A stretch of DNA of 64,000 nt from Paragyromitra xinjiangensis (taxonomy: Eukaryota; Ascomycota; Pezizomycetes; Pezizales; Discinaceae), in the NCBI GenBank assembly GCA_038503065.1, contig JBCAMK010000016.1, positions 1,426,001 through 1,490,000 of the forward strand, written 5' to 3'. Below the pieces are notes generated by a model that worked only from the letters and a program-made list of their open reading frames with translations, was not told the DNA's origin and did not search any database. Position 1 is the first letter of the stretch, and each line of letters starts with the position of its first letter. Shown here piece after piece: positions 32,185 through 48,765 of this stretch. Both the position numbers and the translations under genes were made by a program.

Positions 32185-32771
32185 ATGTCGGCTGTACCTA
32201 ACCCCGCGCCCTCCGATGCCCAAACATCCGCAACCTGGGATTTCCCAACCCAAGACCGTTTTGCTGAACTGGCTGGCACGGATATCGCTAGACTTTACCA
32301 AGATACCCGCGCCTACATCCATAGGCTTGAATTACAAATCGAAGCAAGTGATGAAGCCCGTGAGAACGCGGAACAAACCCTGGGCACGACCCAAATACAG
32401 CTCACCAACGCCAATGCAACCCTCCAACAAGCCAACCAAACCACTGACCGCTTACGAAGGGAGAGGGATCAAGCTCGCTTGGGAGCACAACGAGAATCAC
32501 GTCCTCACTCCCCAGCACCACCTCCACCCCCCCCATTGGTAAGTCAACACCGGTCAGAAAAAATGCCCGACCCAGAGAAGTTCGATGGGTCTCGCGATAA
32601 ACTCCCCGGTTTTGTTCTCCAGCTCCGCTCCAAGCTATCGGTCAACAACGACCGCTTCACCAACGAGAATAATAAGATTCTCTATACCATCAATCGTTTG
32701 GAGGGGGCTGCTCTTGAACAAGTCCGTCACACTGTCCTCCCTAATGGGACAACCACTTGGACCAACGCCGC
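32185..32771 (+). CDS. Element A Gag, N-terminal segment
   Basis: 195 codons plus two bases, interrupted by element B; it resumes at 43951 in frame. Starts MSAVPNPAPSDAQ, then a coiled-coil-like stretch (YIHRLELQIEASDEARENAE onward), a proline linker and the start of the capsid-like region (MPDPEKFDGSRDKLPGFVLQ). The frame that continues past 32771 enters the LTR of element B and is not genuine Gag. Confidence 0.85.
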
Positions 32772-33167
32772 TGTGGTGGGGCGCGCGGGAGGTGGAAGGA
32801 AGCGATGGATAAGTCACGTGCGCGGTCACGTGTATAAGGGTTAGGGGTATTGACAGCGGAGGATTTCTATTACTGTTCAACATTTCCTGTCGATTCTATT
32901 CCTATTCACTACTCTATTCTTTCCTATCTATCTACCTACCTATCTATTTTTGTATCGTATTCCTTTGTGGCGGGCTTTTGCCTTGCCTTATTCGTATCGA
33001 ATATATCCTTCCTATTCGCTCGATTCCACGCCTAATAATCCGCATATATGTGCCTCGCTATAGGACATCGAAGTCCGCGTCGACGCAGTCTCTTCTTCAC
33101 AGCGCGAAGGCAGCGAATATCAGATCTCTGCGTCAAACTGGCAGAGTCTCCTACGCACTCGCCCACA
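32772..33167 (+). repeat. 5' LTR of element B
   Basis: 396 bp, TGTGGTGG to GCCCACA, reading as identical to 43551-43946. Contains CACGTGTATAAGGG (TATA-like) and one GCGTCGACGC palindrome. It is followed by A and TGGTCCCTTCGACC, a candidate tRNA-type primer site. Confidence 0.9.
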
Positions 33168-33286
33168 ATGGTCCCTTCGACCAGAGAGATTGATACGCTA
33201 GGCTTCCTACGTACGAAGAAAAGCAGTCACGCAGCGAATCGCACACACACGCACACACGGAAGGCACGGAGTCTAGAGAAGCTATT

Positions 33287-33450
33287 CGGCAGAGAATTCC
33301 CACGGCGGAATAGACTGTGGAGACGCTATAGGGCGCTAGAAGAGTTTTCTTCGGCAGAGAATTCCCGGTGCGGAATAGGCTGCGAAGTAACGGGATATAG
33401 AGCATTTGAGGCGGCAGAGAAATTCCGTAGCGGATTAGACTGTGCCTATT
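33287..33450 (+). repeat. Three imperfect tandem units in the leader of element B
   Basis: Units starting at 33287, 33352 and 33412 share CGGCAGAGAATTCC, then GCGGAATAGRCTG, spaced 65 and 60 bp. They lie between the 5' LTR and gag, where packaging or dimerisation signals of LTR elements usually are. Function not shown. Confidence 0.6.
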
Positions 33451-33719
33451 GCGGTAGAGGTCGGCTTGCCGATAGCGACGGACTGCGCAAGGAAAAATTT
33501 GTGGCAGGGAAGTCTTCTATGGAAGGGCTAGGCTGTACAATTAATACGGGATCTCGGAAGTTCAGCAGCCGAATTGGCAGGAAGGCAGCAGATGCCACAA
33601 GGCTATATCCCTCCAACACCCCGCGAAAAGAGCAAAAAGATTCAGACTTCGTACGACTCACAGCAGAACTCGCAGCACTCACAGTATTCACCGTATTCGC
33701 CCTATCAATCACAGCAAGC

Positions 33720-36113
33720 ATGTCGACTCCACGGTCCACAGTCAACTCCACGCCAACGGCAGGCACGCCAATTACCACTGCCTCTGCAGACTTGCTTATC
33801 GAAGGACTTCGGAAGCAATTGACGCATATGCCCTTTCCCGGAACCCACGGCGCCCCGCATTTCGATGGAAACGATGCCACGGATTTCCTAGAGCATTATG
33901 AGCTTCTATACGAAGAATTCGGAGAGTCGGAGAAAGCGGCTGTGAAGAAGCTCCCTCTCTATTGCGTCAGCTCTATTGGCGCCACGATTCGTTATTTGCA
34001 GGGATATGTGGATGGAGACTGGCAGGTGTTGCGGAAGGAGATTCTGGAGGAGTATAGAGCGCAGGATACGAAACAACAGATGTATACGGTAAGATTCCTG
34101 GAAGAGCTGACTACCGCGCAGAAGAAGAAAACAGGCGATATACGCCCCTTTGTGCGTACGTTTACGGCAGTTTCCACTAGTCTCAAGACCACAGGCATGC
34201 TTTTGGAATATCAGGAGATTCAGCTGTTTCTAGGAGGGCTGCAATTAGATCTCGCCAGGAAGCTGATTATCAAGTTCAAATTGGATGTCAACGTGCCCAG
34301 CTCTTTTCAAGGCAAATATGCCTTGATTAGGAAAGAAGCTCAGGATTATTGCTTAGGCACGCTTCGCACGGAGGAATTGATGAAGAAGGGTGAGTTTTCT
34401 TCCGAGGTGCTTATTGACCAGCTTTTAGCGCAGGAAACGAAGCCGAAGCCTTCAGTATCAGCCAATTTCGGAGGCTCGCAGCCGGTGCAGTCAGCGCAGA
34501 TTGCGCAGACTACACAGCCAGCTCAACGCCAAAGCCATAGTATGGATGTCACAAGCGCAATTGACGACATTTCGAAGCGCATGGAAGCCATGGTTTTACG
34601 CCAACAGGCGCAATTTATGGAGAGCTTCAGCAGAGCCAACGTCGGCGCCAGAGCACCTCCGCCGCAAGCCTACAACGCGCCAGGGCCTGCTTCGGGAGCA
34701 AATGCAATTCCGCTTCGGAATTCGCAGCCGGCTCAACAGTACGCTCCAAATCTTCAGTATGCTCCGGCAAGGCGTTGCATCTTTTGTGCGGATCCCACGC
34801 ATTTGAAGAATCAATGCCCTGCGTTGATGACTAAAGAGCGCGCAGGATTAGTGCACAGGGCTGTAGGTGGAAGGATTCACTGGGGAGGAGAAGGGTCCGG
34901 AGGAGATGTGGTTGAGCCGTGGGAGAGAAGTACGGGAAGGAATATGCTGCAGCAAGTGGAAGCCCGAGAGCAGCAGCAACCTCCGCAGCCGCCGCAACAG
35001 CCGGGCGTAAGGCGAATCAAGGCTGCGCCCAGTCCTAGCCGCGGTCCGAGCTTCGAGGTCAGAATGGCGCGTTTAGGGGAATTAGATGAAGAAAGCAGCG
35101 AGGAGGAGGCTGTGGAGGAAGAGTTGGAGTCGGAATTGGATTCGGATTCGGAACCAGAGGAAGAGGCGAATTGGTACGTTTCTGCAGTCAAACCTGCGCG
35201 TGTGGAGAAGCGCAGGGCGCCAGCAAAGAAGGAGAAGGTAGAAGATCTGAGGAAAAGAATTGAGAGGCAGGAAGGGTTGCCAAATGCTCGGGCACCCAGG
35301 CCCAGGGCATATCCTCCAGTGGAAACTGTGGAAGTGGAGATGCAGGAAGATAAGCCTACGAATAAGCCGGAAAAGAAGCTCGTTGCGCCACGCAGGGCCC
35401 TTAGAGATGATGCCATAGGCGCCCCCTCCGAAGAAGAGCTTTTCCACAGACTGGCAACGGAAAAGTCGATCAATATCAGCCTTTCGGAATTAGTCTCTAT
35501 TTCTCCGCCCTTCAAGAAATATTTATACGGCAGAGGCGTGCCGCCAGCGGCTGCTGCGAAGGTTTCCAAAGCACATGCATCCCCATGCGATTCTCAATCC
35601 CAGAGGATTAGGCATCAGGTCGAATACGCTGCTGAGTCAGGCCTAATTCCCATCTCTATTAACGGCGTTTTGCTGCAGCCAACGGGGGATAATGGGTCCG
35701 AAATCAATCGAATGGGTTGGTCGGAATTCGAGAGTTTAAATTTGCCGTACGACGACCAAATAGACTGGACCATGACTGGAATTACTGGCGATTCCACACC
35801 TCTGACCTGCTGTATCCACGAAGCGCCCGTTAGTGTAGGGGGTGCTGTAGTCTATACACCGATATTCGCATCTCCGGGAATGGAAGGCGAGTTCGTATTA
35901 GGGCGCCCATTCGAGCGAGCTGCCTTACTAAAGTGGACGAATAAGGACGATGGCTCAATGTGGGGCACGATTTGGTCCTCTGATCGCCTAAAGAAAGCCA
36001 AATTCATGGCAGTTCCGCCTGAAGGATATGCGCGCACTTCAGTAAGGGAAGCAAAGGGGCAGTGGATGCGGAGGAGGCGTGAGCAGAGCTCGGGAAACGG
36101 GAGATCTCAGTAA
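33720..36113 (+). CDS. Element B Gag-protease
   Basis: 797 residues from the Met at 33720 (MSTPRSTVNSTPTAGTP); the frame is open further upstream into the LTR, so the true start is uncertain. Gag capsid-like region near residues 40-230 (FDGNDATDFLEHYELLYEEF, FLGGLQLDLARKLI), then a zinc knuckle CIFCADPTHLKNQC (CX2CX4HX4C), an acidic linker (ELDEESSEEEAVEEELESEL) and a C-terminal retropepsin-like domain. In the latter the active-site motif reads GDNGSEINRM (Asn where Thr or Ser is usual) with a later GEFVLGRPF. Protease therefore sits before the frameshift site, in the gag frame. Ends at TAA 36111-36113. Confidence 0.82.
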   Translation: MSTPRSTVNSTPTAGTPITTASADLLIEGLRKQLTHMPFPGTHGAPHFDGNDATDFLEHYELLYEEFGESEKAAVKKLPLYCVSSIGATIRYLQGYVDGDWQVLRKEILEEYRAQDTKQQMYTVRFLEELTTAQKKKTGDIRPFVRTFTAVSTSLKTTGMLLEYQEIQLFLGGLQLDLARKLIIKFKLDVNVPSSFQGKYALIRKEAQDYCLGTLRTEELMKKGEFSSEVLIDQLLAQETKPKPSVSANFGGSQPVQSAQIAQTTQPAQRQSHSMDVTSAIDDISKRMEAMVLRQQAQFMESFSRANVGARAPPPQAYNAPGPASGANAIPLRNSQPAQQYAPNLQYAPARRCIFCADPTHLKNQCPALMTKERAGLVHRAVGGRIHWGGEGSGGDVVEPWERSTGRNMLQQVEAREQQQPPQPPQQPGVRRIKAAPSPSRGPSFEVRMARLGELDEESSEEEAVEEELESELDSDSEPEEEANWYVSAVKPARVEKRRAPAKKEKVEDLRKRIERQEGLPNARAPRPRAYPPVETVEVEMQEDKPTNKPEKKLVAPRRALRDDAIGAPSEEELFHRLATEKSINISLSELVSISPPFKKYLYGRGVPPAAAAKVSKAHASPCDSQSQRIRHQVEYAAESGLIPISINGVLLQPTGDNGSEINRMGWSEFESLNLPYDDQIDWTMTGITGDSTPLTCCIHEAPVSVGGAVVYTPIFASPGMEGEFVLGRPFERAALLKWTNKDDGSMWGTIWSSDRLKKAKFMAVPPEGYARTSVREAKGQWMRRRREQSSGNGRSQ

Positions 36114-36134
36114 GCGCGGAGGTGCTTACTGAGA
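36092..36134 (+). promoter_or_regulatory. -1 ribosomal frameshift signal, element B
   Basis: Heptamer G GGA AAC at 36092-36098 with GGA and AAC as zero-frame codons, then a short spacer and a perfect stem: 36105-36115 pairs with 36124-36134 (11 bp, arms TCTCAGTAAGC and GCTTACTGAGA) around an 8-nt loop. The gag stop is inside the stem. After a -1 slip the frame is open into Pol. Confidence 0.7.
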
Positions 36135-36592
36135 AGAGGCGGCGGAAACCTCCGGAGAAAGAGGCGGAAGTGGTGGAAGAAGTGGAGGGTGTGGTCGGAA
36201 GAGCGCAGGAGACTCCGCGTCGACGCGGAGTCTTGCGAGGTGCGGAAAGAGAGGTGCGGATGCGGCGGTGTATGGCAGTTTGGAATGAAATTCAGCGAGC
36301 AGGAAGTGGAGTAAGCAGGAGGCTGTATAAGAATAAGAAGGAGAAAGTGCGCCGCAGAACGTCAAAGGTGATGGCGGCGCTGCAGAAGGAAATCGGGTGG
36401 AAGCAGGATTGCCTGAAGGAAGAAAAGAGGCGAGGCCTGGATAAGCCCGTTGGCCCTTTTGATCATATCCTTACGCCCAAATTCAGCAGTGTACCACGAG
36501 GGTCTCGTCTCACGAAAGAAAGAATAGCGGAAATGGATATAGGGCATCTTCACCAAAGGAACGAGAGCTTTGATGGAAATGCTATACAATAG
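36122..36592 (+). CDS. Element B Pol, N-terminal part in the -1 frame
   Basis: In the -1 frame this open stretch continues directly from the frameshift site (it has no ATG of its own; GTG at 36122 is just its first possible start). Basic and Glu-rich linker, then a segment typical of the lead-in to fungal Gypsy RT: FDHILTPKFSSVPRGSRLTK and RIAEMDIG. At 36548-36571 family-like sequence changes frame twice: SPKEREL appears in a third frame before MEMLYNREAA resumes in the frame of the RT ORF. This looks like two single-base deletions in T runs. Real damage or consensus error cannot be told apart here. Confidence 0.65.
   Translation: MLTEKRRRKPPEKEAEVVEEVEGVVGRAQETPRRRGVLRGAEREVRMRRCMAVWNEIQRAGSGVSRRLYKNKKEKVRRRTSKVMAALQKEIGWKQDCLKEEKRRGLDKPVGPFDHILTPKFSSVPRGSRLTKERIAEMDIGHLHQRNESFDGNAIQ
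36211..36232. repeat. Perfect 22-bp palindrome; best copy of a seven-fold motif in element B
   Basis: Core GCGTCGACGC (36217-36226) is a perfect palindrome, extended here by CTCC/GGAG arms to 22 bp. The same core occurs at 33077-33086 (5' LTR), 38103-38112, 39468-39477, 41197-41206, 43297-43306 and 43856-43865 (3' LTR). I noticed no copy elsewhere in the window. Four of the five internal copies encode AST within S/P-AST-R/Q. Confidence 0.85.
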
Positions 36593-39500
36593 GGAGGCTG
36601 CTGTGGCATTCGAATTCACAGAAATTGGCTTATTCAAGTCGGAAGTTGAGCCTCCACACGTAATTCGGACGATTCCACACGTGCCCTGGCAGGAAGCTCC
36701 CTTCAAGACACCCAGAGCCCTGGAAGGGGAGGTTATTGAAATTCTAAAGGCGCGGATGGCAGGAGGCACTCTAGAGCGCTGCCGCGGGCCGTATCGAAAT
36801 CCTTGGTTTCTAGTAAAGAAAAAGCAGGGCGGGCATCGATTAGTCGCCTCTTTCACTAAAGCCAACAGCCATACGATACTAGATGCGGCATTGCCTCCTA
36901 GGGTTGACGAATTCAGCGAAGAATTCGCTGGAATGGCAATAGCCTCGATTATTGATCTATTCTCCGGCTATGATCAGGTGGATTTAGCAGAAGAAAGCAG
37001 AGATATGACCGCTATTCAGACCCCTTTAGGCTTACTTCGCTACACCAGGATGGTGCAGGGAGGCACGAATTCAGTCCAAGCATTTCAACGTATCAACTCC
37101 AAAGCGCAGCATGACAATATTCCGGAGCGTTGCAGAGTCTTTCTGGATGATGTAGGCGTAAAAGGGCCAACTTCGCGGTATGATGATGAGGAAATAAGCC
37201 CTGGAATTCGGAGATTCGTTCAGGAGCATATCGTCAACTTGGACCGAGTCCTGGCGGACTACGAGAGAGCAGGTGCCACAGTGGCGGGAATTAAGTCTTC
37301 TTGGTGCAAGCCTGGAATCAAGATCGTGGGATTCGTTTGTACGGAAGAAGGGCGATTTCCTGATGCAAAGAAAGTGGAAAAGATCGTACTTTGGCCTGCC
37401 TGCGACTCAGTTACGGAAGTCCGAGCCTTTCTAGGAGTTGCCACCTATTATAGGATTTGGATCGAAGGATTTGCAATTATCGCAGCGCCGTTATTCTTCC
37501 TGCAGCGAAAAGGTGTGGTTTTCGTATGGGCGGAAGAGCAGGAGGAAGCAATGGAAACGATCAAAAAGGCACTTACTACTGCGCCAGCGCTGGCTACGCC
37601 ACAATATGGTCCGTTGGCAGGCCTGCTGATTTTAGGGGTGGATGCCGGAGGAGAAGGTTGGGGTGCCGTTTTAATGCAATTATTAGGAGATATAAGGCAC
37701 CCTTGCAGGTATGAGAGCGGGTTGTGGGCGCCTGCAGAGAGGCAGTATGACGCGGGGAAGAAAGAGTGCAAAGGACTGCTCAAGGCGCTGAAGAAGATGC
37801 GCTTTTGGCTCTATGGAGTTAGATTCCGTGTGGAAATCGACGCTCGAACGCTGGTTCACCAATTGAATCTCCCTGCTAATGATCTTCCAGGCGCAATGGT
37901 CACTCGTTGGATTGCGTGGATTCGTCTCTTCGATTTCGACGTGGTCCACGTTCCAGGAAAGCAGCATACTGCAGCAGATGGATTATCGAGGCGTAAGGGG
38001 ACGGAAGAGGATGTGGCGGAAGCAGAGGCGGAAGATGTGGAGGAATTAGAGGAATTCCTCGATGATCAACTATTTGCCAGCCGGGTAACCGCAGGAGAGT
38101 CCGCGTCGACGCGAGGTCCTATTAATCCTTTTGTATGCTTAGCCAAAGGAGAGTATAGTGGTCGTTGGCAGCAGATTGGCGAATTCCTGGAATCGCTTAC
38201 TATGCCGGAAGACCTCTCGGAGAAGCAGCGGAAGGCGTTTAGGCGAGAAGCAACCAAATTCCTAATTCGAGACGGGCATCTATTCCGGAGAGGTCGTGAG
38301 AATCAGCCGCCAAAGCGAGTGATATGCCATGGACCAGAAAAGCAACAAATCCTGAAGGATCTCCACGACGAATCAGGGCATAGAGGCAGAGAAGGCACGT
38401 TTAAGAAGATTTCTCAACGCTTTTGGTGGCGTGGACTAGCCAAGGATGTGGAGGAATTCGTTCGGACCTGCGAGCAATGCCAACTTCGAGCCTCGGCCAG
38501 ATATCCTGACGAATTACACCCTACATTTGGCACTTCGCTATTCGAGAAGGTCTGTGTGGATATCGTGCATATGCCTGCTGGAAGTGATCGAAATCGGTAT
38601 CTAGTTCTCGCTAGAGATGATTTCTCAGGCTGGGCGGAAGGGCGTGCTTTGACTAGAGGGAGCTCGGAGAAAGTGGCGGATTTCCTATTCCAGGAGGTGA
38701 TTTCGCGATTCGGATGTCCTAGGAAGATTGTGGTGGATGGAGGGCCAGAGAATAAGGCATTTACGGAGCGCCTGTGCAATCGGTATAATATCAATAGAAA
38801 GGTCGTTTCTGCATATCATCCGCAGGCAAATGGGCTGGTCGAGCGTGGGCATCAGCAAATAGTGGATGCTTTGCAGAAGATCTCCAAACAGCCGAAAGAT
38901 TGGCCTAATCATCTCCACTCTGTGCTTTGGGCGGATCGAATTACGGTTAGAAGGTCCACAGGAAAGGCGCCTTTTGAGCTCGTTTTTGGGTGGCAGTGTG
39001 TGCTTCCAGTGGAGATAACCATGAGCTCGTGGGGCAGTATTGAGTGGCAGGATATCCACTCTAGGGCAGATTTATTGGCAGCTCGGGCCAGGCAATTGGA
39101 GATGCGAGACGAGGATATTGAGGAAGCAGCAATTCGGCTGAGAGAAAGCAGGTCGGAGAATAAGCGGTATTTCGACTCCCATAGGAGAAAACGGCCTAAT
39201 TCGCAGACCTTGAGCGTTGGAGATCTCGTGCTTCTCCACAATACGAAGCTAGAAAAGCAGTGGAGTGATAAGCTGGCGAATAGATGGCGTGGACCCTTTC
39301 GAATTCGGGAAATATCTCCTGTAGGCACTGTGGTTTTGGAGGAGCTTGATGGCACGCTTTTAGGCGGTACTACGCCTCCAGATCGTGTTAAACGCTTCTT
39401 TCAACGCGCAGGGGAAGTCGCAGAGGAATCCGCTGAAGAATTAGGAGAGAAGGACGCGGAAGTGTCCGCGTCGACGCGGGAACCGCAGGAGGAGGCGGAA

Positions 39501-39614
39501 GAAGAGGCGGAAGTAGAAGAAGATATGGAAATAGAGGAAGAGGATGTTTCTGTGGTTGATGGTAAGCGTGTGAAGCCTAAGAAAGACTGGGGCTTCTACG
39601 TGCAGTTGCCTTAA
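36570..39614 (+). CDS. Element B Pol: reverse transcriptase, RNase H, integrase
   Basis: About 1,014 codons. RT: NPWFLVKKKQGGHRLVASF, IIDLFSGYDQVDL, QTPLGLLRYTRMVQGGTNS, catalytic CRVFLDDVGV (FLDD in place of YLDD/YIDD). RNase H: LGVDAGGEGWGAVL, Glu in KECKGLLKAL, Asp in VEIDARTLVHQL, and HTAADGLSR. Integrase: H2C2 finger (H-x3-H … CEQCQ), then the DDE triad in CVDIVHMP, VVDGGPENKAF and YHPQANGLVERGH. Then a GPY/F-like region (RWRGPFRIREISPVGTVVLE) and a long acidic tail ending WGFYVQLP. No chromodomain. All catalytic residues are present, so the enzyme part looks functional. Confidence 0.9.
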   Translation: MMEMLYNREAAVAFEFTEIGLFKSEVEPPHVIRTIPHVPWQEAPFKTPRALEGEVIEILKARMAGGTLERCRGPYRNPWFLVKKKQGGHRLVASFTKANSHTILDAALPPRVDEFSEEFAGMAIASIIDLFSGYDQVDLAEESRDMTAIQTPLGLLRYTRMVQGGTNSVQAFQRINSKAQHDNIPERCRVFLDDVGVKGPTSRYDDEEISPGIRRFVQEHIVNLDRVLADYERAGATVAGIKSSWCKPGIKIVGFVCTEEGRFPDAKKVEKIVLWPACDSVTEVRAFLGVATYYRIWIEGFAIIAAPLFFLQRKGVVFVWAEEQEEAMETIKKALTTAPALATPQYGPLAGLLILGVDAGGEGWGAVLMQLLGDIRHPCRYESGLWAPAERQYDAGKKECKGLLKALKKMRFWLYGVRFRVEIDARTLVHQLNLPANDLPGAMVTRWIAWIRLFDFDVVHVPGKQHTAADGLSRRKGTEEDVAEAEAEDVEELEEFLDDQLFASRVTAGESASTRGPINPFVCLAKGEYSGRWQQIGEFLESLTMPEDLSEKQRKAFRREATKFLIRDGHLFRRGRENQPPKRVICHGPEKQQILKDLHDESGHRGREGTFKKISQRFWWRGLAKDVEEFVRTCEQCQLRASARYPDELHPTFGTSLFEKVCVDIVHMPAGSDRNRYLVLARDDFSGWAEGRALTRGSSEKVADFLFQEVISRFGCPRKIVVDGGPENKAFTERLCNRYNINRKVVSAYHPQANGLVERGHQQIVDALQKISKQPKDWPNHLHSVLWADRITVRRSTGKAPFELVFGWQCVLPVEITMSSWGSIEWQDIHSRADLLAARARQLEMRDEDIEEAAIRLRESRSENKRYFDSHRRKRPNSQTLSVGDLVLLHNTKLEKQWSDKLANRWRGPFRIREISPVGTVVLEELDGTLLGGTTPPDRVKRFFQRAGEVAEESAEELGEKDAEVSASTREPQEEAEEEAEVEEDMEIEEEDVSVVDGKRVKPKKDWGFYVQLP

Positions 39615-40281
39615 TACCACTAAAAGGGGGTCCCTTACGAGTTTCCTTTGTACCGTTTCTTTGGCTCTTATTCGTCGTTTCCTTCGTCTATTACTCATCG
39701 TTTCTTTCGTATCTATTTACCTGTATTCCCTTCGTGTATTCCTTGGTCTACTATTCGTCGTTTCTTTCGTATACTCCTCGTCAATTCGTCAGTTGATTCG
39801 TCTCTATTTGCCTGTATTTCCTTCGTATCTAGTCGTCTATTCCTTCGTATATTCCTCAGTCAATTCCTGTTTAATTCCTTCGGAGTTCTATGTTTCTATT
39901 AGCTGTATTTTTCCTATTTTTGTACCTGTATTTGGCGGATTTAGTGTATTTTCCTATGTTTCAGTGGAAGAGGTGGTGGAAGTCGAATTAAGGTTGGGGC
40001 TCTGCGGGAATCGCCGGCAGGATAGGGCTTAGGGCTATGACGCAGAGGTACCAGAAACGCCATGACCTCTTCTTTATTAGGAGGGGAGGGGGAAGCAAAC
40101 CTGCTTCCTAGGACTAATCCCTTACATCTCTCGCCTAAAGGAAGGATCTCGTCGAACTCTCCGCAATCAGTTTGATTCCTTCGCTATCAAGCTGACCCTC
40201 GATATCAAGTTGACCCTCGACGCATAGATATCAGCGCTTTCAAGTTGGGCACCATTTCTTTGTTTGCTTTACTACGTCATC
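39615..40281 (+). other. Spacer between pol and the extra gene of element B
   Basis: TTCGT/CCTTCGTAT-rich, pyrimidine-biased sequence with only simple-sequence frames. Could hold a promoter or a splice acceptor for the downstream gene. Nothing certain. Confidence 0.5.
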
Positions 40282-41733
40282 ATGAAACAGCAGCGCGCCA
40301 TGTTCACTCCCATAAATGAGCCGGCTGGCCCCAGCACTCCAGAAGGCAGAAAAACGAGAAGCAGCAAGTCAGAGTCGCTGTCGCCAAGTACGGTCAAGAA
40401 AATGGTACACAGAGCGCCGAAAACCTCAGGCCATACGGGCACCAACGAAATCGTCGAAATCACGAGAGAAAGCGTATTGCAGCAGCGCGCCAAACATGGC
40501 CTGCGCAGTCTAATCGAGAAGACCATGGCAGCGCACAAAGATCCCGTATCTCGAGCCGCCGTTGCTAAGGATGCCCTGGAGGTGTTTGCAGAGGCGCGGG
40601 AGGTATCAGATGAGGGAATCTCGCGGATTTGGGCCGATTATGTGGAGAAAGAGGGGCTATGGGATCAGTTTGGTGGAGAAGCGGCGTTTAGGGCTATGAT
40701 GGACTATGATAACGTGATTGCGCCGGCGCAAGAGCGTTATAGAGCCACAGATGGCAGGAAGGAGAGGGCGAGGAAGTTGATTTGTGAGAAGTGGGGCGAC
40801 CAATGGGAGGAGGAGTTCGATCCACAAGAGTACCGCCTGCGCCAATTCTCAGAGCATTTCCTACGTCAATTAGCGGCAATTGCTCGAGATGGGTGGTCAA
40901 TGAGCCAAGCCTGGAAGGCGCTGGATGCAGGCTATCGAATGCGCCTGCAGGATCGAACCTCCGGCCAACAGAAAGCCTTGGTATTCATGCCTAAAGATGT
41001 GGCATATGCCAAGGAATGGTTAACGAAGGCAGGAGAGGGGAAGGAAACGAAAGAGGAGGTTCGGGATGAGGATTTGGTGTTGGCGTGGCCTGTGGAAGTT
41101 AGGCCGAAGCAGATTAAGCCAAAGGCTGCTAAGAAGGGGAAGTCGCTGGAGAGAGTAGTGGAGGAAGTGGAGAGTGGGGCGGAAGATCAGGACTCCGCGT
41201 CGACGCAGACTCCTCGCTTGGTGCCAGAGGAGGATGAGGTGGTTGGTAAGGCTGTGGAGGCGCAAGCGCAGCGCCAACTGGAAAAAGGAAAGGGGAAGGA
41301 AGTGGCGGAAGAAGAGGCGGAAGAGGTGCAGAAAGGTGTGGAAACGGAAGAGGAGGAGGATATCCATAAGTCCGAAGCATGTGGTTGTGGAGAATATCTC
41401 TCCAAGGCATGGGTTTCTAATCTGCGCAAATATCGAAGTGCAGAGGTGGTACCGCTTGCCTCGCAGGGCAAATATCTACTGGATGGCGTGGAGGCAGGGC
41501 TTGATAATCTGTGCTGGGAGCACTTACAGCGGCTGGCATCGTACGTTGGCCTGTATGTCAAGCGCCTGAACCGCGCGGAGATGACGCTGCGCCTGCAGCA
41601 CATCCACAGGCAGTGGGATTCAATAGGGAATCTTCACGCTGCCGCAGCGACTTATGGCTGGTTTAGGAAAGGAGCGAGGGCTAGAGTGGAGGCGGACGAT
41701 TGGGGATCTGGGTTGTGGGAGCCAATTCCGTAG
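40282..41733 (+). CDS. Element B extra gene, N-terminal part
   Basis: 483 residues from MKQQRAMFTPINEP (40282). I do not recognise the N-terminal domain. It is mainly helical-looking (SRIWADYVEKEGLWDQFGGE, RKLICEKWGDQWEEEFDPQE), followed by an acidic Lys/Glu-rich linker that contains one AST palindrome copy, then a segment beginning EACGCGEYLSKAWVSNLRKY and ending with LQHIHRQWDSIGNLHAAAAT. The frame stops at 41733, just where the next frame (RRNFRSLIEEIF) takes over; homologous-looking sequence continues without a gap, so a one-base shift near 41,700-41,733 is likely. Its position after pol is that of env or other accessory genes. Confidence 0.7.
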   Translation: MKQQRAMFTPINEPAGPSTPEGRKTRSSKSESLSPSTVKKMVHRAPKTSGHTGTNEIVEITRESVLQQRAKHGLRSLIEKTMAAHKDPVSRAAVAKDALEVFAEAREVSDEGISRIWADYVEKEGLWDQFGGEAAFRAMMDYDNVIAPAQERYRATDGRKERARKLICEKWGDQWEEEFDPQEYRLRQFSEHFLRQLAAIARDGWSMSQAWKALDAGYRMRLQDRTSGQQKALVFMPKDVAYAKEWLTKAGEGKETKEEVRDEDLVLAWPVEVRPKQIKPKAAKKGKSLERVVEEVESGAEDQDSASTQTPRLVPEEDEVVGKAVEAQAQRQLEKGKGKEVAEEEAEEVQKGVETEEEEDIHKSEACGCGEYLSKAWVSNLRKYRSAEVVPLASQGKYLLDGVEAGLDNLCWEHLQRLASYVGLYVKRLNRAEMTLRLQHIHRQWDSIGNLHAAAATYGWFRKGARARVEADDWGSGLWEPIP

Positions 41734-42727
41734 GAACTTCCGCAGTTTGATAGAGGAAATCTTTGCGCGCTTTGGCAGTCAGGAGGCTTGGGATGCGTTT
41801 CTGGAGAAAGGCAATTGTGTGGTTCCGGCGTTTAGGTGGTTGACGGAGGAAACGGAGCTTTGGGCTAAGATCTCGGAGGAATTCGACCTATATCTCCACC
41901 ATCAACGGAGTGATTCAACGGGCTGGCTGCGGAATTGCTATCACTCCGTATTACAGCAGGCAATTAGGCAAGACCCCGTGTATTACGTTTTGGTGTTGGC
42001 TGCGAGGTCGGACCGCGCCTATCGTATGCTGGCATTTCCTCACTATGCCAAGTTTTCGTTGCCTGGAGATTATACGCAATTCCGCCATATAGATCTGAAT
42101 CCTCGGAAGGCTCTAGATACGGGCGTGGGAGTGAATCACATCCAGACCTCGCTCTCGCTGGATCAGGAGATCCCGGAAGGCTGTACCGCGGTCGTCGAAG
42201 GCTTCCAGAATCACCTCGGGGATTGGTGGGCTCGAGTGGAAGCGCGTGGAGATGCCAAAGACGGCAACTCTTTCCGAACCACTAAAACGTATCTGCAGGA
42301 GGATGAAGCTTCGTTTGGCAAGGAAACGAATATCGTCTGCGCGCCTGGAGATCTCCGAATTACGCTGCCGCATCTAATTCACGGGGCAACTGCTGGCGCC
42401 AAGGATAAGGCAATTCTGCAGCGAAGAACGGTGAATAATTGGCCCACAGCCATCCAGGGAGACGGAGAAGCCATGGAATTCCTGGAGATGGGCTCACGTG
42501 CCGATATCGCCGAAGCACATCGTTCGCTGACCGTACTGCCGCGGAATCCTACTGGGCAAATCAATGCCCATAGCCGCCCTAAAGCACGTTTTGCGAGTAC
42601 TCCGAGGTCCGAGTGTGGGGAATTGGAGATGCGCTGTTGGGATTGGTGGATTGGGAGTCGGCTCGTGTGCGTTGGGAGTTGGAGATCTTGCTGGGGGCAG
42701 ATGAGCGGAAGGCGTGGAAATTGGTGA
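41654..42727 (+). CDS. Element B extra gene, middle part: 2-oxoglutarate/Fe(II) dioxygenase-like domain
   Basis: Frame +1 relative to its neighbours. Coding-like from about SQFRRNFRSLIEEIFARFG (41,720) to ARFASTPRS (42,605). Contains a double-stranded beta-helix dioxygenase signature: an HxD pair in FRHIDLN (residues 145 and 147, about 42,086), then SLSLDQEIPEGCTAVVEGF and LGDWWARVEARG, then APGDLRITLPHLIHGATAG with the distal His (residue 243 or 240), and Arg 257/258 in LQRR, where the 2-oxoglutarate-binding Arg is expected. The LPHLIHGA…R pattern is like phytanoyl-CoA-dioxygenase and TET/JBP-type folds. Catalytic residues appear complete. The substrate is unknown; in a transposon, modified nucleic acid is one option (inference). 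Confidence 0.65.
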   Translation: MAGLGKERGLEWRRTIGDLGCGSQFRRNFRSLIEEIFARFGSQEAWDAFLEKGNCVVPAFRWLTEETELWAKISEEFDLYLHHQRSDSTGWLRNCYHSVLQQAIRQDPVYYVLVLAARSDRAYRMLAFPHYAKFSLPGDYTQFRHIDLNPRKALDTGVGVNHIQTSLSLDQEIPEGCTAVVEGFQNHLGDWWARVEARGDAKDGNSFRTTKTYLQEDEASFGKETNIVCAPGDLRITLPHLIHGATAGAKDKAILQRRTVNNWPTAIQGDGEAMEFLEMGSRADIAEAHRSLTVLPRNPTGQINAHSRPKARFASTPRSECGELEMRCWDWWIGSRLVCVGSWRSCWGQMSGRRGNW

Positions 42728-43383
42728 GAAAGGTGCGGAGGAAGTTGATGGAGGCTATGAGGGAGGGGTATAAGGTCCAGGAGTGGGCGGAGAGGCGAGA
42801 TTTCGGTCCGAATTCCTATTTCCACGCCAGAGATACGGGCACTTGGGAGCCTCCCATGCGAATTACCAAGGAAGGCAAGGATTCGTTGCTGCGTGGAGGT
42901 TATTCGCTGGCAGGATTTGGTTCGGATGTGGAATCGGAGGTGGAGGTGGAGTCGGAAGTGGAGGTGGAGTCGGAGGTGGAATTGGGCTCTCCTATTAGGG
43001 AGGAGTTAGAGGTGGAAAAGGAAATAGAGCCCGAATTGGAGGACTCGGAGAAGGGATTGGAGGAATTGGAGGATCCGCCGGTTGGTGTCGCCGCCGCAGC
43101 TGCTGTTGCTGCGAAGGATTCGCCCGCTACTGATGTCGCCGCCGCAGCTGCTGTTGCTGCTAAGGATTCGCCCGCTACTGATGTCGCCGCCGCAGCTGCT
43201 GTTGCTGCTAAGGATTCGTCTGCTGCTGACGTTGCCCCGCCTGTTGCTAATGAGGATATGCCTCCTCCGGAACCTCGCGTTTTGGCAGAAGACCCTGCGT
43301 CGACGCAGTCTCCTGCTAAGCGGAAGCTTTCCACGTCGTCGGAAGGGAAGAAGAAGCGACGGAGGAAGCGAATGAATTGGTAG
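42613..43383 (+). CDS. Element B extra gene, C-terminal part with acidic and Ala-rich repeats
   Basis: Returns to the frame of the first part (40264 and 42613 agree modulo 3), so the two indels compensate. Sequence runs on as LLGLVDWESARVRWELEILL and RKAWKLVRKVRRKLMEAMRE. Then come an EVEVESEVEVESEVE acidic repeat, a 16-residue Ala-rich unit repeated three times (43087-43230), the AST palindrome copy (EDPASTQSPAKRK) and a strongly basic end, GKKKRRRKRMNW, resembling a nuclear localisation signal. Ends 168 bp before the 3' LTR. Confidence 0.68.
   Translation: MWGIGDALLGLVDWESARVRWELEILLGADERKAWKLVRKVRRKLMEAMREGYKVQEWAERRDFGPNSYFHARDTGTWEPPMRITKEGKDSLLRGGYSLAGFGSDVESEVEVESEVEVESEVELGSPIREELEVEKEIEPELEDSEKGLEELEDPPVGVAAAAAVAAKDSPATDVAAAAAVAAKDSPATDVAAAAAVAAKDSSAADVAPPVANEDMPPPEPRVLAEDPASTQSPAKRKLSTSSEGKKKRRRKRMNW
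43087..43230 (+). repeat. 48-bp tandem repeat, three copies, in the extra gene
   Basis: Copies at 43087, 43135 and 43183 encode VAAAAAVAAKDSPATD or close variants. First two nearly identical, third slightly diverged (SPATD to SSAAD). Confidence 0.9.
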
Positions 43384-43550: not shown

Positions 43551-43946
43551 TGTGGTGGGGCGCGCGGGAGGTGGAAGGAAGCGATGGATAAGTCACGTGC
43601 GCGGTCACGTGTATAAGGGTTAGGGGTATTGACAGCGGAGGATTTCTATTACTGTTCAACATTTCCTGTCGATTCTATTCCTATTCACTACTCTATTCTT
43701 TCCTATCTATCTACCTACCTATCTATTTTTGTATCGTATTCCTTTGTGGCGGGCTTTTGCCTTGCCTTATTCGTATCGAATATATCCTTCCTATTCGCTC
43801 GATTCCACGCCTAATAATCCGCATATATGTGCCTCGCTATAGGACATCGAAGTCCGCGTCGACGCAGTCTCTTCTTCACAGCGCGAAGGCAGCGAATATC
43901 AGATCTCTGCGTCAAACTGGCAGAGTCTCCTACGCACTCGCCCACA
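43551..43946 (+). repeat. 3' LTR of element B
   Basis: 396 bp, read as identical to 32772-33167. Followed by the CCGC duplication (43947-43950), where Gag of element A resumes. Confidence 0.92.
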
Positions 43947-43950
43947 CCGC

Positions 43951-44653
43951 CGAACTCATTACTGCCCTGGAAACCGCCTTTGGCGACCCCGACCCAACCG
44001 GAACAGCGAGGAGGGAACTCCACCAACTAAAACAGGGAAAGAGGGAGTTCTCCGCTTACCTAGCAGATTTCCAACGCATCATGGGACGCCTTCAGTATGG
44101 GGAAACCGCGAAAATGGACACCTTGGAATATGGGATCTCAGAGGAATTGAAGGAAGCAATGGTTGTTATAGTAGATCCTCCTACCACCTTTAACACCTTC
44201 ACCTCGCTCCTCCTTCGGTTAGATAATCGTATCAGGGCCCGCAAGGAGGAAAAGAAAAATACCAACCGAAACAACATGGGACAATTTGTCGCCCCCGCTC
44301 CTGCCTCCTTTAACCCCCATCCTTCCCATATCCCGGGAGGGCTGGCCCCCATGGACCTTTCCTTTGGAAGAACCAGTAATATGGATCGCCCCGCACCAGA
44401 TCAACGGTTCACCATGATTAACGGACGAAAAAAGCTTTCGGATCTCGAGAAACAGTGGCGTCGGTCCACTGGCAAATGTATGTTTTGCGTGAGTGAAAAT
44501 CATTCCTACGCCAACTGCCCCTCAGCGCCAAAAAAACCCGCAATGAGAGGAGCTCTGGTAAATACAGCTCCCGCAGCGTCTTCCTTGTCGGGATCTGTTG
44601 ATCCATTACCTTCTTTCACGGCTGTGGATATTTCCCAGTCTTTAAACTTGTAA
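43951..44653 (+). CDS. Element A Gag, C-terminal segment
   Basis: Resumes gag after element B (…TTWTNA-AELITALETAFG…). The two pieces total 1,290 nt, exactly 430 codons. Contains capsid-type sequence (RRELHQLKQGKREFSAYLAD, FQRIMGRLQYGE) and a zinc knuckle CMFCVSENHSYANC (CX2CX4HX4C). The last sense codons, TCT TTA AAC TTG before TAA, include the frameshift heptamer. An open frame starting at 43757 includes LTR sequence and is an artefact upstream of 43951. Confidence 0.88.
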
Positions 44654-44686
44654 AACCAGAGTCGCTATGTGACCCTGCTCTGGTTT
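44641..44686 (+). promoter_or_regulatory. -1 ribosomal frameshift signal, element A
   Basis: Slippery heptamer T TTA AAC at 44641-44647, in the gag zero frame, one codon before the gag stop. A 5-nt spacer follows, then a perfect 9-bp stem: AAACCAGAG 44653-44661 pairs with CTCTGGTTT 44678-44686, 16-nt loop. The -1 frame is open from the heptamer into Pol. Confidence 0.8.
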
Positions 44687-47600
44687 CTTTTTCTTCTTCT
44701 CTGTCTGTTTTTTCTATTTCGGGATTTTCGGTATCTGATGTGTGCGTGGAGGATAAATTGGATGGGGAACATTTTGTTATCTCTTGTAACCTTTCAAGTA
44801 ACAATAAAACCATACAAACTCACGCACTATTGGACACTGGAGCCTCGGGATTTGCATTCATGGATGAAGAATTTGCGCGTCACCATAATTTCCCCCTTAT
44901 CCCCCTCAAAATCCCTCGCCAACTCGAAGTTATCGATGGTAGGCCCATTTCTTCGGGCGCCATCACTCATCTTGTACATTGCGGGCTTTCTATTCAAGAT
45001 CATCAGGAAAAAGCCCCCTTCTTTGTGACACAACTTGGTCACTATCCGCTAGTCCTAGGAATCCCTTGGATGAAGCATCATGACGTTTCCCTACAATTTG
45101 CAGCCAATAAAGTTACTTTTGGATCCAAACACTGCCGCACTCATTGCGCCCCCACCAAAATTCCGGTTATAACTCACGGCATCCAACCTCCAAAAGAACT
45201 TAAAGTCCATTTCATCGGAGCTGCAGCTTTTAGCCGGCTAGCTAAGAAACGGACATCCCAGATTTACGCTATTTCCCTGTGTGAAATTAATAAAATTTTA
45301 GACAAACAAGCCACAAAAGAAGAATGGAAACAACGGATCCCCCTGGAATACCATGAGTTCCTGGACATGTTTGACGAATCCAAAGCCAATGGACTCCCCC
45401 CACGCCGTCCTTATGATCACAAGATACCCCTTCTCGCCGGGAAAGAACCACCCTTCGGGCCTCTCTATGGGATGTCAAGAGAAGAACTCTTGGTATTAAA
45501 AGAGTATATCGAAGATAACCTTGGAAAAGGGTTTATCCAAGCCAGCTCGTCACCAGCCGGAGCCCCGGTTCTCTTTGTGAAGAAAGCTGATGGATCCCTC
45601 CGTTTGTGCGTGGACTACCGTGGATTAAACAGTATCACCATTAAAGATCGCTATACTTCCCCCCTCATCCGCGAAACTCTGGACCGCCTGGCCAAAGCTA
45701 AATGGTATACCAAGTTAGACCTTCGCATGGGTTATAATCAAATACGAATGGGAGAAGGGGAAGAGTGGAAAACGGCCTTCCGTACCCGTTATGGCCTCTA
45801 CGAGTACAAAGTTATGCCCTTTGGACTCACCAATGCACCTGGCACCTTCCAACGCTTCGTTAACGATTGCCTCACTGAATACTTGGATATTTTCTGTACC
45901 GCCTACCTCGACGATATCTTAATTTACAGTGATAACCTGGAGGAGCATAAGGAACACGTTAATAAGGTACTTCAAGCTCTGAAACAGCAAGGAATCCTTC
46001 TCAAACCTGAGAAATGCGAATTTCATACCCAATCAATTAAATATTTGGGATTGATCCTTTCCCCAGATGGCATCAGCATGGATGAGGAGAAGCTAAAGGC
46101 TGTAAGAGAGTGGGGTGTACCAAGATCGGTTAAAGATGTCCAGGCTTTCTTGGGGTTTGCGAATTTTTATCGACGGTTTATATTCGGGTTTTCACGACTT
46201 TCCTCCCCCCTCTCGGCATTAACAAAAAAGGACACTCCGTTTGAATGGTCCCCTAAGGCACAGCAAGCTTTCGATGCATTAAAATTCGCTTTCACTACCG
46301 CTCCAATCCTCATGCACTTCGACCCTGATAAGAAAATCTTTGTGGAAACTGACGCTTCTGATTATGTATCCACTGGTATTCTATCTCAATATGACGATAA
46401 TGGAGTTTTACACCCGGTAGCCTTCTTTTCAAAGAAACATTCCCCCGCAGAATGCAACTATGAAATATACGACAAGGAACTACTAGCCATTATTCGCACA
46501 TTCGAGGAATGGAGACCGGAATTGGAAGGGGCAGCACATCCCATCTCAGTTATCTCCGATCATAAGAATTTGGAATACTTCATGACCACCAAACAATTAA
46601 ATCGTCGACAAGCAAGATGGGCTGAGTACCTTTCACGTTTCAATTTCGTTATTACCTATCGACCAGGAAAACAAGGAGGAAAACCGGACGCATTGACAAG
46701 GAGATCAGGAGACCTCCCTGAAGAAGGGGATGAAAGACTCGCACACCAGAGTCAAGTGGTATTAAAAAAGGAAAATCTGGATCCTAAGCTAAGTTTGTTG
46801 GCGGGCTCTTTATCAAACGAACCCGCTGAAATGGACGCCACCCTATTTTTATTATTCAAAGAAGGATATAAAGCTGACCCATTCCCGGAGAAAATCCTTA
46901 CAGCATTAGAAAAAGGAGATAGACAATCAAAGGAAATCTCACTGGCCGAATGCATTAACAGTAATGGACTCCTCAAGTACCGCCAATGTTTCTTCGTCCC
47001 CGATTTCGATTCACTACGCCTTGAAATCCTGAAGCAATATCACGATACACCGGCAGCAGGGCACTCAGGACGAGAAAAAACTTTCGAGCTGGTATCTAGG
47101 GATTTTTATTGGCCAAAGATGAGGGAATATATCGGCCGCTACATCAGGAATTGCCACGTTTGTCAACGAGCAAAGCCAACAACGCAAGGCACGCAAGGAG
47201 TTTTACGCCCCCTACCTATTCCGAATAGACCTTGGGAAGAATTATCAATGGATTTTGTGACAGGGTTACCGGAATCGGAAGGCTTTGATGCAATAATGGT
47301 TATTGTTGACCGATTGTCGAAAATGAGACACCTAATTCCTTGCAACACTACTGTGAATGCTCGACAAGTGGCTGATTTGTACCTCCTGAATGTCTGGAAA
47401 ATCCATGGCTTACCCTCTCATATCACTTCCGACCGTGGTACACAGTTCACCGCCAAGTTTTGGAAAGAGTTATGCCAACGGCTACAAATCAAGGCCAGGA
47501 TGTCAACCTCTTTCCACCCAGAAACGGACGGGCAAACCGAGAGACTCAATGCAGTAATGGAACAGTATCTCCGATGCTACGTGTCTTACCAGCAAGAAGA

Positions 47601-48306
47601 CTGGGTTAAATGGTTACCAATCGCGGAGTTCGCAGCAAATAATCAAGAATCGGCAAGTACAAAAGTGACACCTTTCTTTGCCAATTACGGTTACCACCCT
47701 CGCTTTAACACCTTGATAATGCCAACATCCCGGGATCCACAAGCCCGCGACGCCAAGGACTTCGCCCAGCGCATGGAAGAACTTCGAAACTTCCTACGAA
47801 CACAGATCCGGACGGCCCAAGATGTTTATGAGACAAGCACCAACAGGCATCGAACCCCAGCCCCAGCATATCGAGTCGGAGATCAAGTTTTTGTATCTAC
47901 CAAAAACATACGCACTTCCCGGGCCTCAAAGAAACTGGACTGGAAATGGATGGGCCCATACCCGGTTAAAAGAATCGTGTCACCCTACGCTTATGAGATT
48001 GATTTCCCTTCCTCAGTCAAATACCACTCTGTCTTTCACGTATCCTTGATAAAGCCAACCGCAACAGACCCCTTGCCAGGACATATAATTCCACCACCAC
48101 CTCCGGTACAAGTCAATGATCACGAGGAATACTATATTGACGAAATCCTGGATTCGAGGATACAACATGAAAACCTGGAATACTTGGTCAAATGGACGGG
48201 CTATGCTCAACCTACCTGGGAGTCGGCAAAGGATCATCAAGAAACACAGGCCGTGGAGATTTTTCACCAACGATATCCCGATAAACTTAATGATATGGTA
48301 CCTTAG
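44641..48306 (+). CDS. Element A Pol: protease, RT, RNase H, integrase, chromodomain
   Basis: Expressed as Gag-Pol by the -1 frameshift at 44641; there is no ATG at the start of the open frame (GTG at 44740). Protease HALLDTGASGFAF. RT: RLCVDYRGLNSITIKDRYTS, LDLRMGYNQIRM, TAYLDDILIYS (YLDD). RNase H: FVETDASDYVSTGIL, YDKELLAI, VISDHKNLEYF, KPDALTRR. Integrase: H2C2 finger (AAGHSGREKTFE … CHVCQ) and DDE in MDFVTGLPES, SDRGTQFTAKFW, FHPETDGQTERLN. GPY/F motif WKWMGPYPVKRI. C-terminal chromodomain (YYIDEILDSR … YLVKWTGYAQPTWESAKDH), which targets integration to modified chromatin in chromoviruses. All catalytic residues present, no internal stop. Confidence 0.95.
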   Translation, partial: FKLVKPESLCDPALVSFSSSLSVFSISGFSVSDVCVEDKLDGEHFVISCNLSSNNKTIQTHALLDTGASGFAFMDEEFARHHNFPLIPLKIPRQLEVIDGRPISSGAITHLVHCGLSIQDHQEKAPFFVTQLGHYPLVLGIPWMKHHDVSLQFAANKVTFGSKHCRTHCAPTKIPVITHGIQPPKELKVHFIGAAAFSRLAKKRTSQIYAISLCEINKILDKQATKEEWKQRIPLEYHEFLDMFDESKANGLPPRRPYDHKIPLLAGKEPPFGPLYGMSREELLVLKEYIEDNLGKGFIQASSSPAGAPVLFVKKADGSLRLCVDYRGLNSITIKDRYTSPLIRETLDRLAKAKWYTKLDLRMGYNQIRMGEGEEWKTAFRTRYGLYEYKVMPFGLTNAPGTFQRFVNDCLTEYLDIFCTAYLDDILIYSDNLEEHKEHVNKVLQALKQQGILLKPEKCEFHTQSIKYLGLILSPDGISMDEEKLKAVREWGVPRSVKDVQAFLGFANFYRRFIFGFSRLSSPLSALTKKDTPFEWSPKAQQAFDALKFAFTTAPILMHFDPDKKIFVETDASDYVSTGILSQYDDNGVLHPVAFFSKKHSPAECNYEIYDKELLAIIRTFEEWRPELEGAAHPISVISDHKNLEYFMTTKQLNRRQARWAEYLSRFNFVITYRPGKQGGKPDALTRRSGDLPEEGDERLAHQSQVVLKKENLDPKLSLLAGSLSNEPAEMDATLFLLFKEGYKADPFPEKILTALEKGDRQSKEISLAECINSNGLLKYRQCFFVPDFDSLRLEILKQYHDTPAAGHSGREKTFELVSRDFYWPKMREYIGRYIRNCHVCQRAKPTTQGTQGVLRPLPIPNRPWEELSMDFVTGLPESEGFDAIMVIVDRLSKMRHLIPCNTTVNARQVADLYLLNVWKIHGLPSHITSDRGTQFTAKFWKELCQRLQIKARMSTSFHPETDGQTERLNAVMEQYLRCYVSYQQEDWVKWLPIAEFAANNQESASTKVTPFFANYGYHPRFNTLIMPTSRDPQARDAKDFAQRMEELRNFLRTQIRTAQDVYETSTNRHRTPAPAYRVGDQVFVSTKNIRTSRASKKLDWKWMGPYPVKRIVSPYAYEIDFPSSVKYHSVFHVSLIKPTATDPLPGHIIPPPPPVQVNDHEEYYIDEILDSRIQHENLEYLVKWTGYAQPTWESAKDHQETQAVEIFHQRYPDKLNDMVP

Positions 48307-48341: not shown

Positions 48342-48760
48342 TTTCATGGATAAGGGTCAGGCACAGGTGCGGTGTTAAGGATTAGTCATTGTGTTATTTC
48401 GTTGTGTTTCTTTGTGATTCGGTTGGGTTGTTTCGAATGGTTGAGTCATGAATGAGTCATAGAAAGGGGAAGATTGGGTATATAAGCGATGGATTTCCGT
48501 GGTTGTAATTGTTCTTTTCTTTCTTTCCTTAAGCAACGTTTCTTACTTTACTTCTACCCTACTGCTATAGAAATATCATCTCTGTTTCTACCCCAGAAAC
48601 ATCATCGTCGCTGTCGCTGTGACCCCAGAATCACCTTGATTCTTACCCTACGTGAGGCCTGTGGAAAACATTGTATAATCATTGTAGCGAAGTCTCTTTC
48701 AAGTAGCACTGCTCACCTTTGGGGATACCGAAGGGCTTGTTGAAACCTCGCTCCCTGAGA
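48342..48760 (+). repeat. 3' LTR of element A
   Basis: 419 bp, uninterrupted. TATATAA at 48479-48485, presumed transcript start AAGCAACGT at 48531-48539. One difference from the 5' copy. It shows what the 5' LTR looked like before element C landed. Confidence 0.9.
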
Positions 48761-48765
48761 CCTGC
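48761..48765. repeat. Target-site duplication CCTGC of element A (right)
   Basis: Pairs with 29347-29351; also part of LINE ORF2. Confidence 0.85.

Follow-up and report, generated by a model that had tools for sequence, protein, structure and literature searches.

A third gene for a predicted PhyH-like 2-oxoglutarate/Fe(II) oxygenase in a Ty3/Gypsy retrotransposon family of Paragyromitra xinjiangensis

The nearest precedent for a 2-oxoglutarate (2OG)/Fe(II) dioxygenase gene of the kind described here comes from orchids, in which Ty3/Gypsy elements of Phalaenopsis are described as carrying an open reading frame (ORF) for an AlkB-like N6-methyladenosine (m6A) demethylase (PMC9289625), showing that such an enzyme can be a retained, active Gypsy gene. 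In fungi, TET/JBP dioxygenases of the PU, AG and PE types are carried by DNA transposons, Helitrons included; that account reports no retrotransposon with TET/JBP and suggests high copy number as a possible reason (PMC12730594). Here we describe element B, an 11.2-kb fungal Ty3/Gypsy long terminal repeat (LTR) retrotransposon whose additional gene, ORF3, encodes a predicted 2OG/Fe(II) oxygenase. It lies in a 64,000-nucleotide stretch of the P. xinjiangensis genome (Pezizales, Discinaceae; assembly GCA_038503065.1, contig JBCAMK010000016.1, positions 1,426,001–1,490,000), hereafter the window, within which feature coordinates are given.

Shared with the orchid elements are the Gypsy-group LTR retrotransposon and an extra 2OG/Fe(II) dioxygenase ORF maintained in many copies. 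The orchid enzyme is of the AlkB type (Pfam 13532) and sits in a 25-kb plant element, whereas ORF3 is PhyH/DUF1479-like by its predicted fold, belongs to an 11.2-kb fungal element and has its own N-terminal domain and a zinc-like motif. The TET/JBP transposons are likewise fungal mobile elements that carry a 2OG/Fe(II) dioxygenase and occur in Pezizomycetes too, but they are DNA transposons, the Pezizomycete (PE) type has H-x-E (PMC12730594) where ORF3 has H-x-D, and the Tet_JBP profile has no match in ORF3. A further parallel comes from Arabidopsis, in which VANDAL transposons encode VANC anti-silencing proteins that bind motifs (PMC5735166, PMC10398659). In both cases an element-encoded protein is paired with a short motif that recurs within the element and is seldom found beyond it; binding has been shown for VANC, whereas ORF3 is a putative binder, and the VANC motifs form tandem non-coding arrays whereas those of element B are seven dispersed, mostly coding sites. 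VANC itself is not known to be a 2OG oxygenase. Among the open-licence papers listed, no title or opening of an abstract mentions PhyH-like or TET-like oxygenases in a fungal retrotransposon, and a term search of the main text of a survey of fungal LTR retrotransposons did not return the word dioxygenase (PMC3248453).

ORF3 as a gene of the element B family

Placed between pol (ending at 39614) and the 3' LTR (beginning at 43551), ORF3 occupies 40282–43383 of the forward strand, from a conserved ATG at 40282 (MKQQRAMF) to a stop at 43381–43383; in the window it is spread over three overlapping frames (40228–41733, 41627–42727 and 42583–43383). When the middle piece was searched against the genome in six frames, 66 matches resulted, which were grouped by hand into 21 loci, the window included, and stretches spanning pol to the 3' LTR were retrieved for the 20 other copies. 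An LTR follows ORF3 in all 20 (that of L031 is cut by the end of its stretch), and in seven copies (L032, L034, L035, L037, L038, L042 and L044) ORF3 is one open frame of 991–1021 codons, running from MKQQRAMF to TAG. Every pol match of at least 48% identity coincides with an ORF3 locus, and 19 of the 21 loci have one; the closest other pol family is 28% identical (45 of 224 candidates scored). One of the protein homologues described below (P0008) used as query gave 25 matches in this genome, all at ORF3 loci.

Selection was assessed by the Nei–Gojobori method in all 21 pairwise comparisons among the seven intact copies. The proportion of synonymous differences (pS) is 0.204 and that of nonsynonymous differences (pN) 0.0215, a ratio of 0.105, with values of 0.066 for the oxygenase part, 0.104 for the N-terminal part, 0.146 for the region after the oxygenase and 0.256 for the tail; in the close pair L038/L042, which differs by few changes, the ratio is 0.50. 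As the corresponding ratio for pol is 0.080 (seven copies, five of them shared with the ORF3 set), ORF3 is held about as tightly as pol. Given 21 loci, seven open frames and purifying selection, the coding sequence is no chance product, and the first-pass annotation, which had read about 3.1 kb of coding sequence at 40264–43383 as an extra gene after pol in the env position, is borne out; the uninterrupted copies that it proposed to look for exist in the genome. ORF3 is a real third gene of this Ty3/Gypsy family, maintained by selection, and we regard its standing as a genuine gene of the element as practically certain.

The two frame breaks of the window ORF3 are absent from all seven intact copies. 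They may be real or assembly indels, the latter because L033 and L050, though 98% identical, contain 17 and 13 gaps of this type. Six copies (L033, L036, L045, L047, L048 and L050) have 10–23 ORF3 gaps not divisible by three, by decay or assembly error, counted against the window copy and thus including its own two breaks; if these gaps are assembly errors, more than seven copies may be intact.

Element B is bounded by identical 396-bp LTRs that start with TG and end with CA (5' LTR, 32772–33167; 3' LTR, 43551–43946; both on the forward strand) and is flanked by the 4-bp target duplication CCGC (32768–32771 and 43947–43950). On the same strand, pol (36083–39614) encodes reverse transcriptase, RNase H and integrase, with Pfam matches to RVT_1, RT_RNaseH, Integrase_H2C2 and rve; it is split in the window copy (frames 36083–36592 and 36543–39614) and is a single frame of 1194 codons in L035. 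The LTRs, target duplication and reverse transcriptase–RNase H–integrase order are features of Ty3/Gypsy LTR retrotransposons. The gag-like open frame (33168–36113, forward strand, within a stop-to-stop ORF at 33039–36113) has no Pfam match and is called gag from position only; a DNGSE stretch close to its end is protease-like. Another copy, L038, also has identical LTRs (383/383) and a 4-bp duplication, GCGG, and the family is multi-copy with recent insertions.

The predicted oxygenase and its homologues

An AlphaFold2 model of residues 480–950 of the intact copy L032 predicts a double-stranded β-helix (predicted local distance difference test score, pLDDT, 75.8; predicted template modelling score 0.72). 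With the Foldseek and VIA-align comparisons, this places the putative 2OG/Fe(II) oxygenase domain at approximately 41757–42490 of the forward strand. The candidate iron ligands are the H-x-D of FRHIDLN (42086–42094; 11 of 12 aligned rows, and all 21 copies by tblastn or DNA) and the distal His of LPHLIHGA (42380–42382; 12 of 12 rows, 21 of 21 copies). They are followed on the same strand by an Arg-Arg pair (42422–42427) whose second Arg, present in every row and copy, would bind 2OG by analogy. All four residues are read by tblastn in 18 of the 21 copies; in the three others, the broken copies L047, L049 and L050, tblastn gives H and R, not H-x-D, and the DNA there has FRHIDLN. The dioxygenase domain of the first-pass annotation thus gains a predicted fold: of two contrary outcomes named beforehand, a model lacking the double-stranded β-helix and homologues not conserving H, D, H and R, neither was seen. 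That ORF3 is a 2OG/Fe(II) oxygenase is, on the model and these residues, very probable.

Among the best 50 VIA-align rows, the closest folds to the model in the PDB are PhyH/DUF1479 proteins, including YbiU (4rgk), Gig2 (6akz), GriE, SnoN and PrhA, at 9–18% identity. These are host enzymes, several of them metabolic, whereas ORF3 is element-borne; we know of no relative in this group on a mobile element. Four of the ten ORF3 homologues described below respond to the PhyH Pfam profile (PF05721), P0004 with 26.2 bits (cut-off 22) and P0002, P0005 and P0008 below the cut-off, and the other six have no match. A host PhyH gene was considered as the source of ORF3; the three genomic places that the profile matches all lie away from the ORF3 loci. 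Sequence searches of the PDB gave 17 weak rows and no oxygenase with a profile of full-length rows, and three weak rows with a trimmed profile, in which two ribosomal proteins rank above an oxygenase (4xaa, E 0.54); the 4xaa row aligns the H...R strands and is set aside as evidence. By predicted fold and residues, the ORF3 oxygenase would belong to the PhyH/DUF1479 group and appears PhyH-like, not TET/JBP.

The kinship with TET/JBP enzymes that the first-pass annotation had raised is not supported. Tet_JBP (PF12851) and 2OG-FeII_Oxy_6 (PF20515) have no match in L032 or L037 (E ≤ 10) or in the ten homologues (E ≤ 1), and both match elsewhere in the genome, at four places (two over the cut-off) and three places, respectively, none of them an ORF3 locus. 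The genome therefore seems to hold TET-like genes plus a separate retroelement-borne oxygenase. The PF12851 places are G000:C6:1157158, C15:1341155, C1:3431858 and C12:824328, and those of PF20515 are C10:1000816, C16:1252750 and C17:28243. AlkB (PF13532) is absent from the Pfam families matched in L032, L037 and the ten homologues, and neither TET2/CcTET nor AlkB structures are among the best 50 VIA-align rows, although rows beyond 50 could hold them.

Compared as a whole with 5.8 billion proteins, using words from its oxygenase part, ORF3 has ten homologues of 768–960 amino acids at 33–48% identity, three of them without an organism name. The named hosts are the Pezizomycetes Maublancomyces gigas and Wilcoxina mikolae, the Geoglossomycetes Glutinoglossum americanum and Geoglossum umbratile (the latter with three proteins) and Coleophoma crateriformis (Leotiomycetes). 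Closest is P0001 from M. gigas (Pezizales), and a nine-row tree, rooted only for display, sets the element and the Maublancomyces protein apart from the remaining seven (100/99). Two short proteins of 281 and 158 amino acids were added by a profile search. Homologues outside fungi were not confirmed in viral_contigs or GTDB genome_contigs, and a protein search with a 366-residue piece of the window found no match under a length filter of about 200–640 amino acids that excludes the 768–960-residue homologues. The homologues can be aligned with the N-terminal part of ORF3 as well, and no Pfam model covers them end to end; together they make up a family of fungal oxygenases whose N-domain is uncharacterised.

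Preceding the oxygenase is an N-terminal part (40282–41379, forward strand) modelled as a helical domain with a disordered linker (pLDDT 59 overall, with a block at 76–92 over model residues 71–170), which agrees with the unknown N-domain noted at first pass. Between the two lies a possible zinc-binding motif (41380–41523, forward strand) made of CxC (41380–41388) and CxxH (41512–41523), complete in 8 of 12 rows, with CxxH in 11 of 12. The C-terminal tail contains a 48-bp tandem repeat (43086–43240, forward strand) and ends in a basic stretch resembling a nuclear localisation signal (NLS; KKKRRRKR, 43348–43371, forward strand). This NLS-like terminus, also foreseen from the window copy, closes all seven intact copies as KKKRRRKRMNW and is absent from the tails of all ten homologues.

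A palindrome repeated along element B

The CpG-rich palindrome GCGTCGACGC is present at seven places in the window, always in element B, once per LTR and five times internally. The sites are at 33077–33086 (5' LTR), 36217–36226 (within a 24-bp perfect palindrome and in a frame that differs from the next four), 38103–38112 (pol, in the RNase H/integrase interval), 39468–39477 (end of pol), 41197–41206 (ORF3 linker), 43297–43306 (ORF3 tail) and 43856–43865 (3' LTR). No other palindromic 10-mer is found more than once in element B. With one mismatch permitted, the 12-mer GCGTCGACGCAG matches 13 times on the two strands together, where shuffles lead one to expect 0.09. Genome-wide, the 14-mer CYGCGTCGACGCRG has 104 sites and its reversed control none; among 50 of the 104 sites that were listed, 49 fall in element or LTR loci, which cover 127 kb.

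With sites assigned to copies by distance to the LTR, the 10-bp core is found near each of six covered sites in 16 to 19 of the 21 copies. At four internal sites the core is better conserved than its flanks (0.983–0.994 versus 0.915–0.952); the LTR site is no better kept (0.990 versus 0.994) and the site at 39468 aligns badly. The aligned 10-mer ranks only moderately high in conservation, at the 65th–79th percentile for five of six sites and the 23rd at 39468. Stronger evidence for constraint on the DNA comes from codon choice. Four window sites encode Ala-Ser-Thr in frame, and this peptide is spelled GCGTCGACG in 66 of 69 in-frame cases (four sites, 21 copies), against a codon product of 0.039 expected from usage, a count that takes in only places where the peptide is kept and copies that are related and so not independent. 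A count of 102 of 108 pools the LTR and off-frame sites with the in-frame ones. The three in-frame departures, and the three at LTR or off-frame sites, are CpG transitions. The palindrome is likely to be under DNA-level constraint.

A protease cleavage peptide (SAST[RQ]) was considered and fits the four coding sites only. Because the LTR sites are extragenic and the site at 36217 is off-frame (both in the window and in L035 with its long pol frame), we favour a role at the DNA level over a peptide. One reading, by analogy with VANC, treats the palindrome as a candidate site that the ORF3 protein would recognise; others are a host-factor, packaging or integrase site. The palindrome is of interest whichever factor binds it.

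The window is part of a 48.2-Mb assembly of 22 contigs. Joining the flanks of element B restores a single unbroken frame that runs into the gag-like frame of a neighbouring Gypsy element, and element B is therefore nested inside it. The enclosing element (43951–48306, with its gag start upstream of 32771) is a chromodomain Gypsy with reverse transcriptase, RNase H, integrase and Chromo domains, an open pol of 1234 codons and at least 12 more genomic pol matches of similar length. Downstream lies a LINE-like element (48713–54024, minus strand) with endonuclease and reverse transcriptase domains in 49577–51823, on either side of which the frames have no Pfam match. An ankyrin-repeat open frame is located at 16175–17758 (minus strand).

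Possible roles of the ORF3 protein

As the likeliest explanation of these features, the ORF3 protein would enter the nucleus, be brought to element DNA or chromatin by its N-terminal and zinc-like part, and there oxidise a methyl group, on a methylated DNA base or on a histone or nascent-RNA methyl mark, thereby weakening host silencing of the element. We give this chain as a whole an even chance, and hold nuclear action on behalf of the element to be equally balanced. A methylated DNA base is our first guess for the substrate, a tentative one, followed by methylated RNA and then protein. A more specific version, which we consider improbable, is a self-guided eraser, in which the protein, probably as a dimer, would read (CY)GCGTCGACGC(RG) and its PhyH-like oxygenase would remove or oxidise methyl marks there.

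Host C5-methyltransferase domains, CpG changes and the palindrome bear on a silencing role only as circumstantial evidence. The methyltransferase domains are found at three places on two contigs. C/T differences were counted between each of the 20 copies and the window over ORF3 and its surroundings; hypermutation of the CpA type (repeat-induced point mutation) was not seen, the CpA rate of 0.018 being the lowest of the four contexts. CpG differences (window C/copy T versus the reverse) are one-sided in L043 (32:3), L031 (18:4), L041 (37:17), L042 (34:14) and L040 (23:8) and balanced in L032 (10:10) and L034 (14:16), a pattern that hints at deamination of methylated CpG in some copies.

Several points weigh against a silencing role or the enzyme behind it. 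The CpG imbalance is reversed in L045 (10:19), and CpT is about 2:1 one-sided in L035, L039, L040, L046 and L048; as CpT also differs more than CpG across all copies (0.053 versus 0.046), CpG-type decay remains a hint. Other Gypsy copies in the genome are open without close relatives of ORF3 beside pol. The N-terminal part gave no fold match of weight and no binding domain of known fold, and the PhyH profile matches neither the element copies L032 and L037 nor any ORF3 locus in the genome search. P0001, which has the four-residue insert of ORF3, reads Q-x-N in place of H-x-D, and may come from a sister element whose copy has decayed. Where enzymes with the nearest folds have been characterised, their substrates are small molecules, and we know of no nucleic-acid substrate for DUF1479 proteins. 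PHYHD1 and its relatives are described as acting on free 2'-O-methyl nucleosides and not on the RNA substrates tried (PMC12709175).

Other explanations start from a different place or substrate. ORF3 could work in the cytoplasm or the virus-like particle on methylated RNA of the element (m6A, 2'-O-methyl or cap) or on nucleosides, to the benefit of translation, reverse transcription or evasion of RNA-based silencing. Retroelement RNA is in the right place for this, the orchid AlkB demethylates m6A RNA in vitro (PMC9289625) and some PhyH-family enzymes accept 2'-O-methyl nucleosides, but the inactivity of PHYHD1 on the RNA substrates tried (PMC12709175) counts against it, and the NLS-like tail and a palindrome partly in non-coding DNA hint at the nucleus and at DNA; we consider this route possible but unlikely. 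Modification of Gag, integrase or a host chromatin protein, in the manner of prolyl or JmjC hydroxylases, is improbable. Several groups of 2OG oxygenases do hydroxylate proteins and host chromatin proteins are plausible targets, yet by title the best 50 VIA-align rows contain no protein hydroxylase except the free-proline hydroxylase H11, an amino-acid enzyme.

Use of the fold solely as a binding or assembly module, with the catalytic residues as relics, is very unlikely given H, D, H and R in all 21 copies and H-x-D in 11 of 12 rows across three fungal classes. For ORF3 as a passenger, a host gene or separate mobile element landed in a single copy, it can be said that no homologue elsewhere was shown inside a retroelement. 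Its position between pol and an LTR at 21 loci, 19 of which gave a pol match, purifying selection between subfamilies and the confinement of P0008 matches to ORF3 loci in this genome all oppose it, and for the element B family the passenger reading is refuted by the loci, LTR placement and selection, leaving it the barest chance.

Silencing is often pictured as something that retrotransposons passively undergo. In a fungal Gypsy family that has inserted recently, a selected oxygenase would place an active counter-measure inside the retroelement itself, and a different oxygenase family may here take the role left vacant by the TET/JBP-free retrotransposons. Intact copies, host C5-methyltransferase domains and a candidate recognition site make the question of counter-silencing testable. 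If true, a guided eraser of the kind outlined would make this the first retrotransposon that we know of to bring its own oxidative enzyme to bear on the silencing of DNA or chromatin, and would add to the PhyH/DUF1479 oxygenases a new branch that acts on nucleic acids or chromatin.

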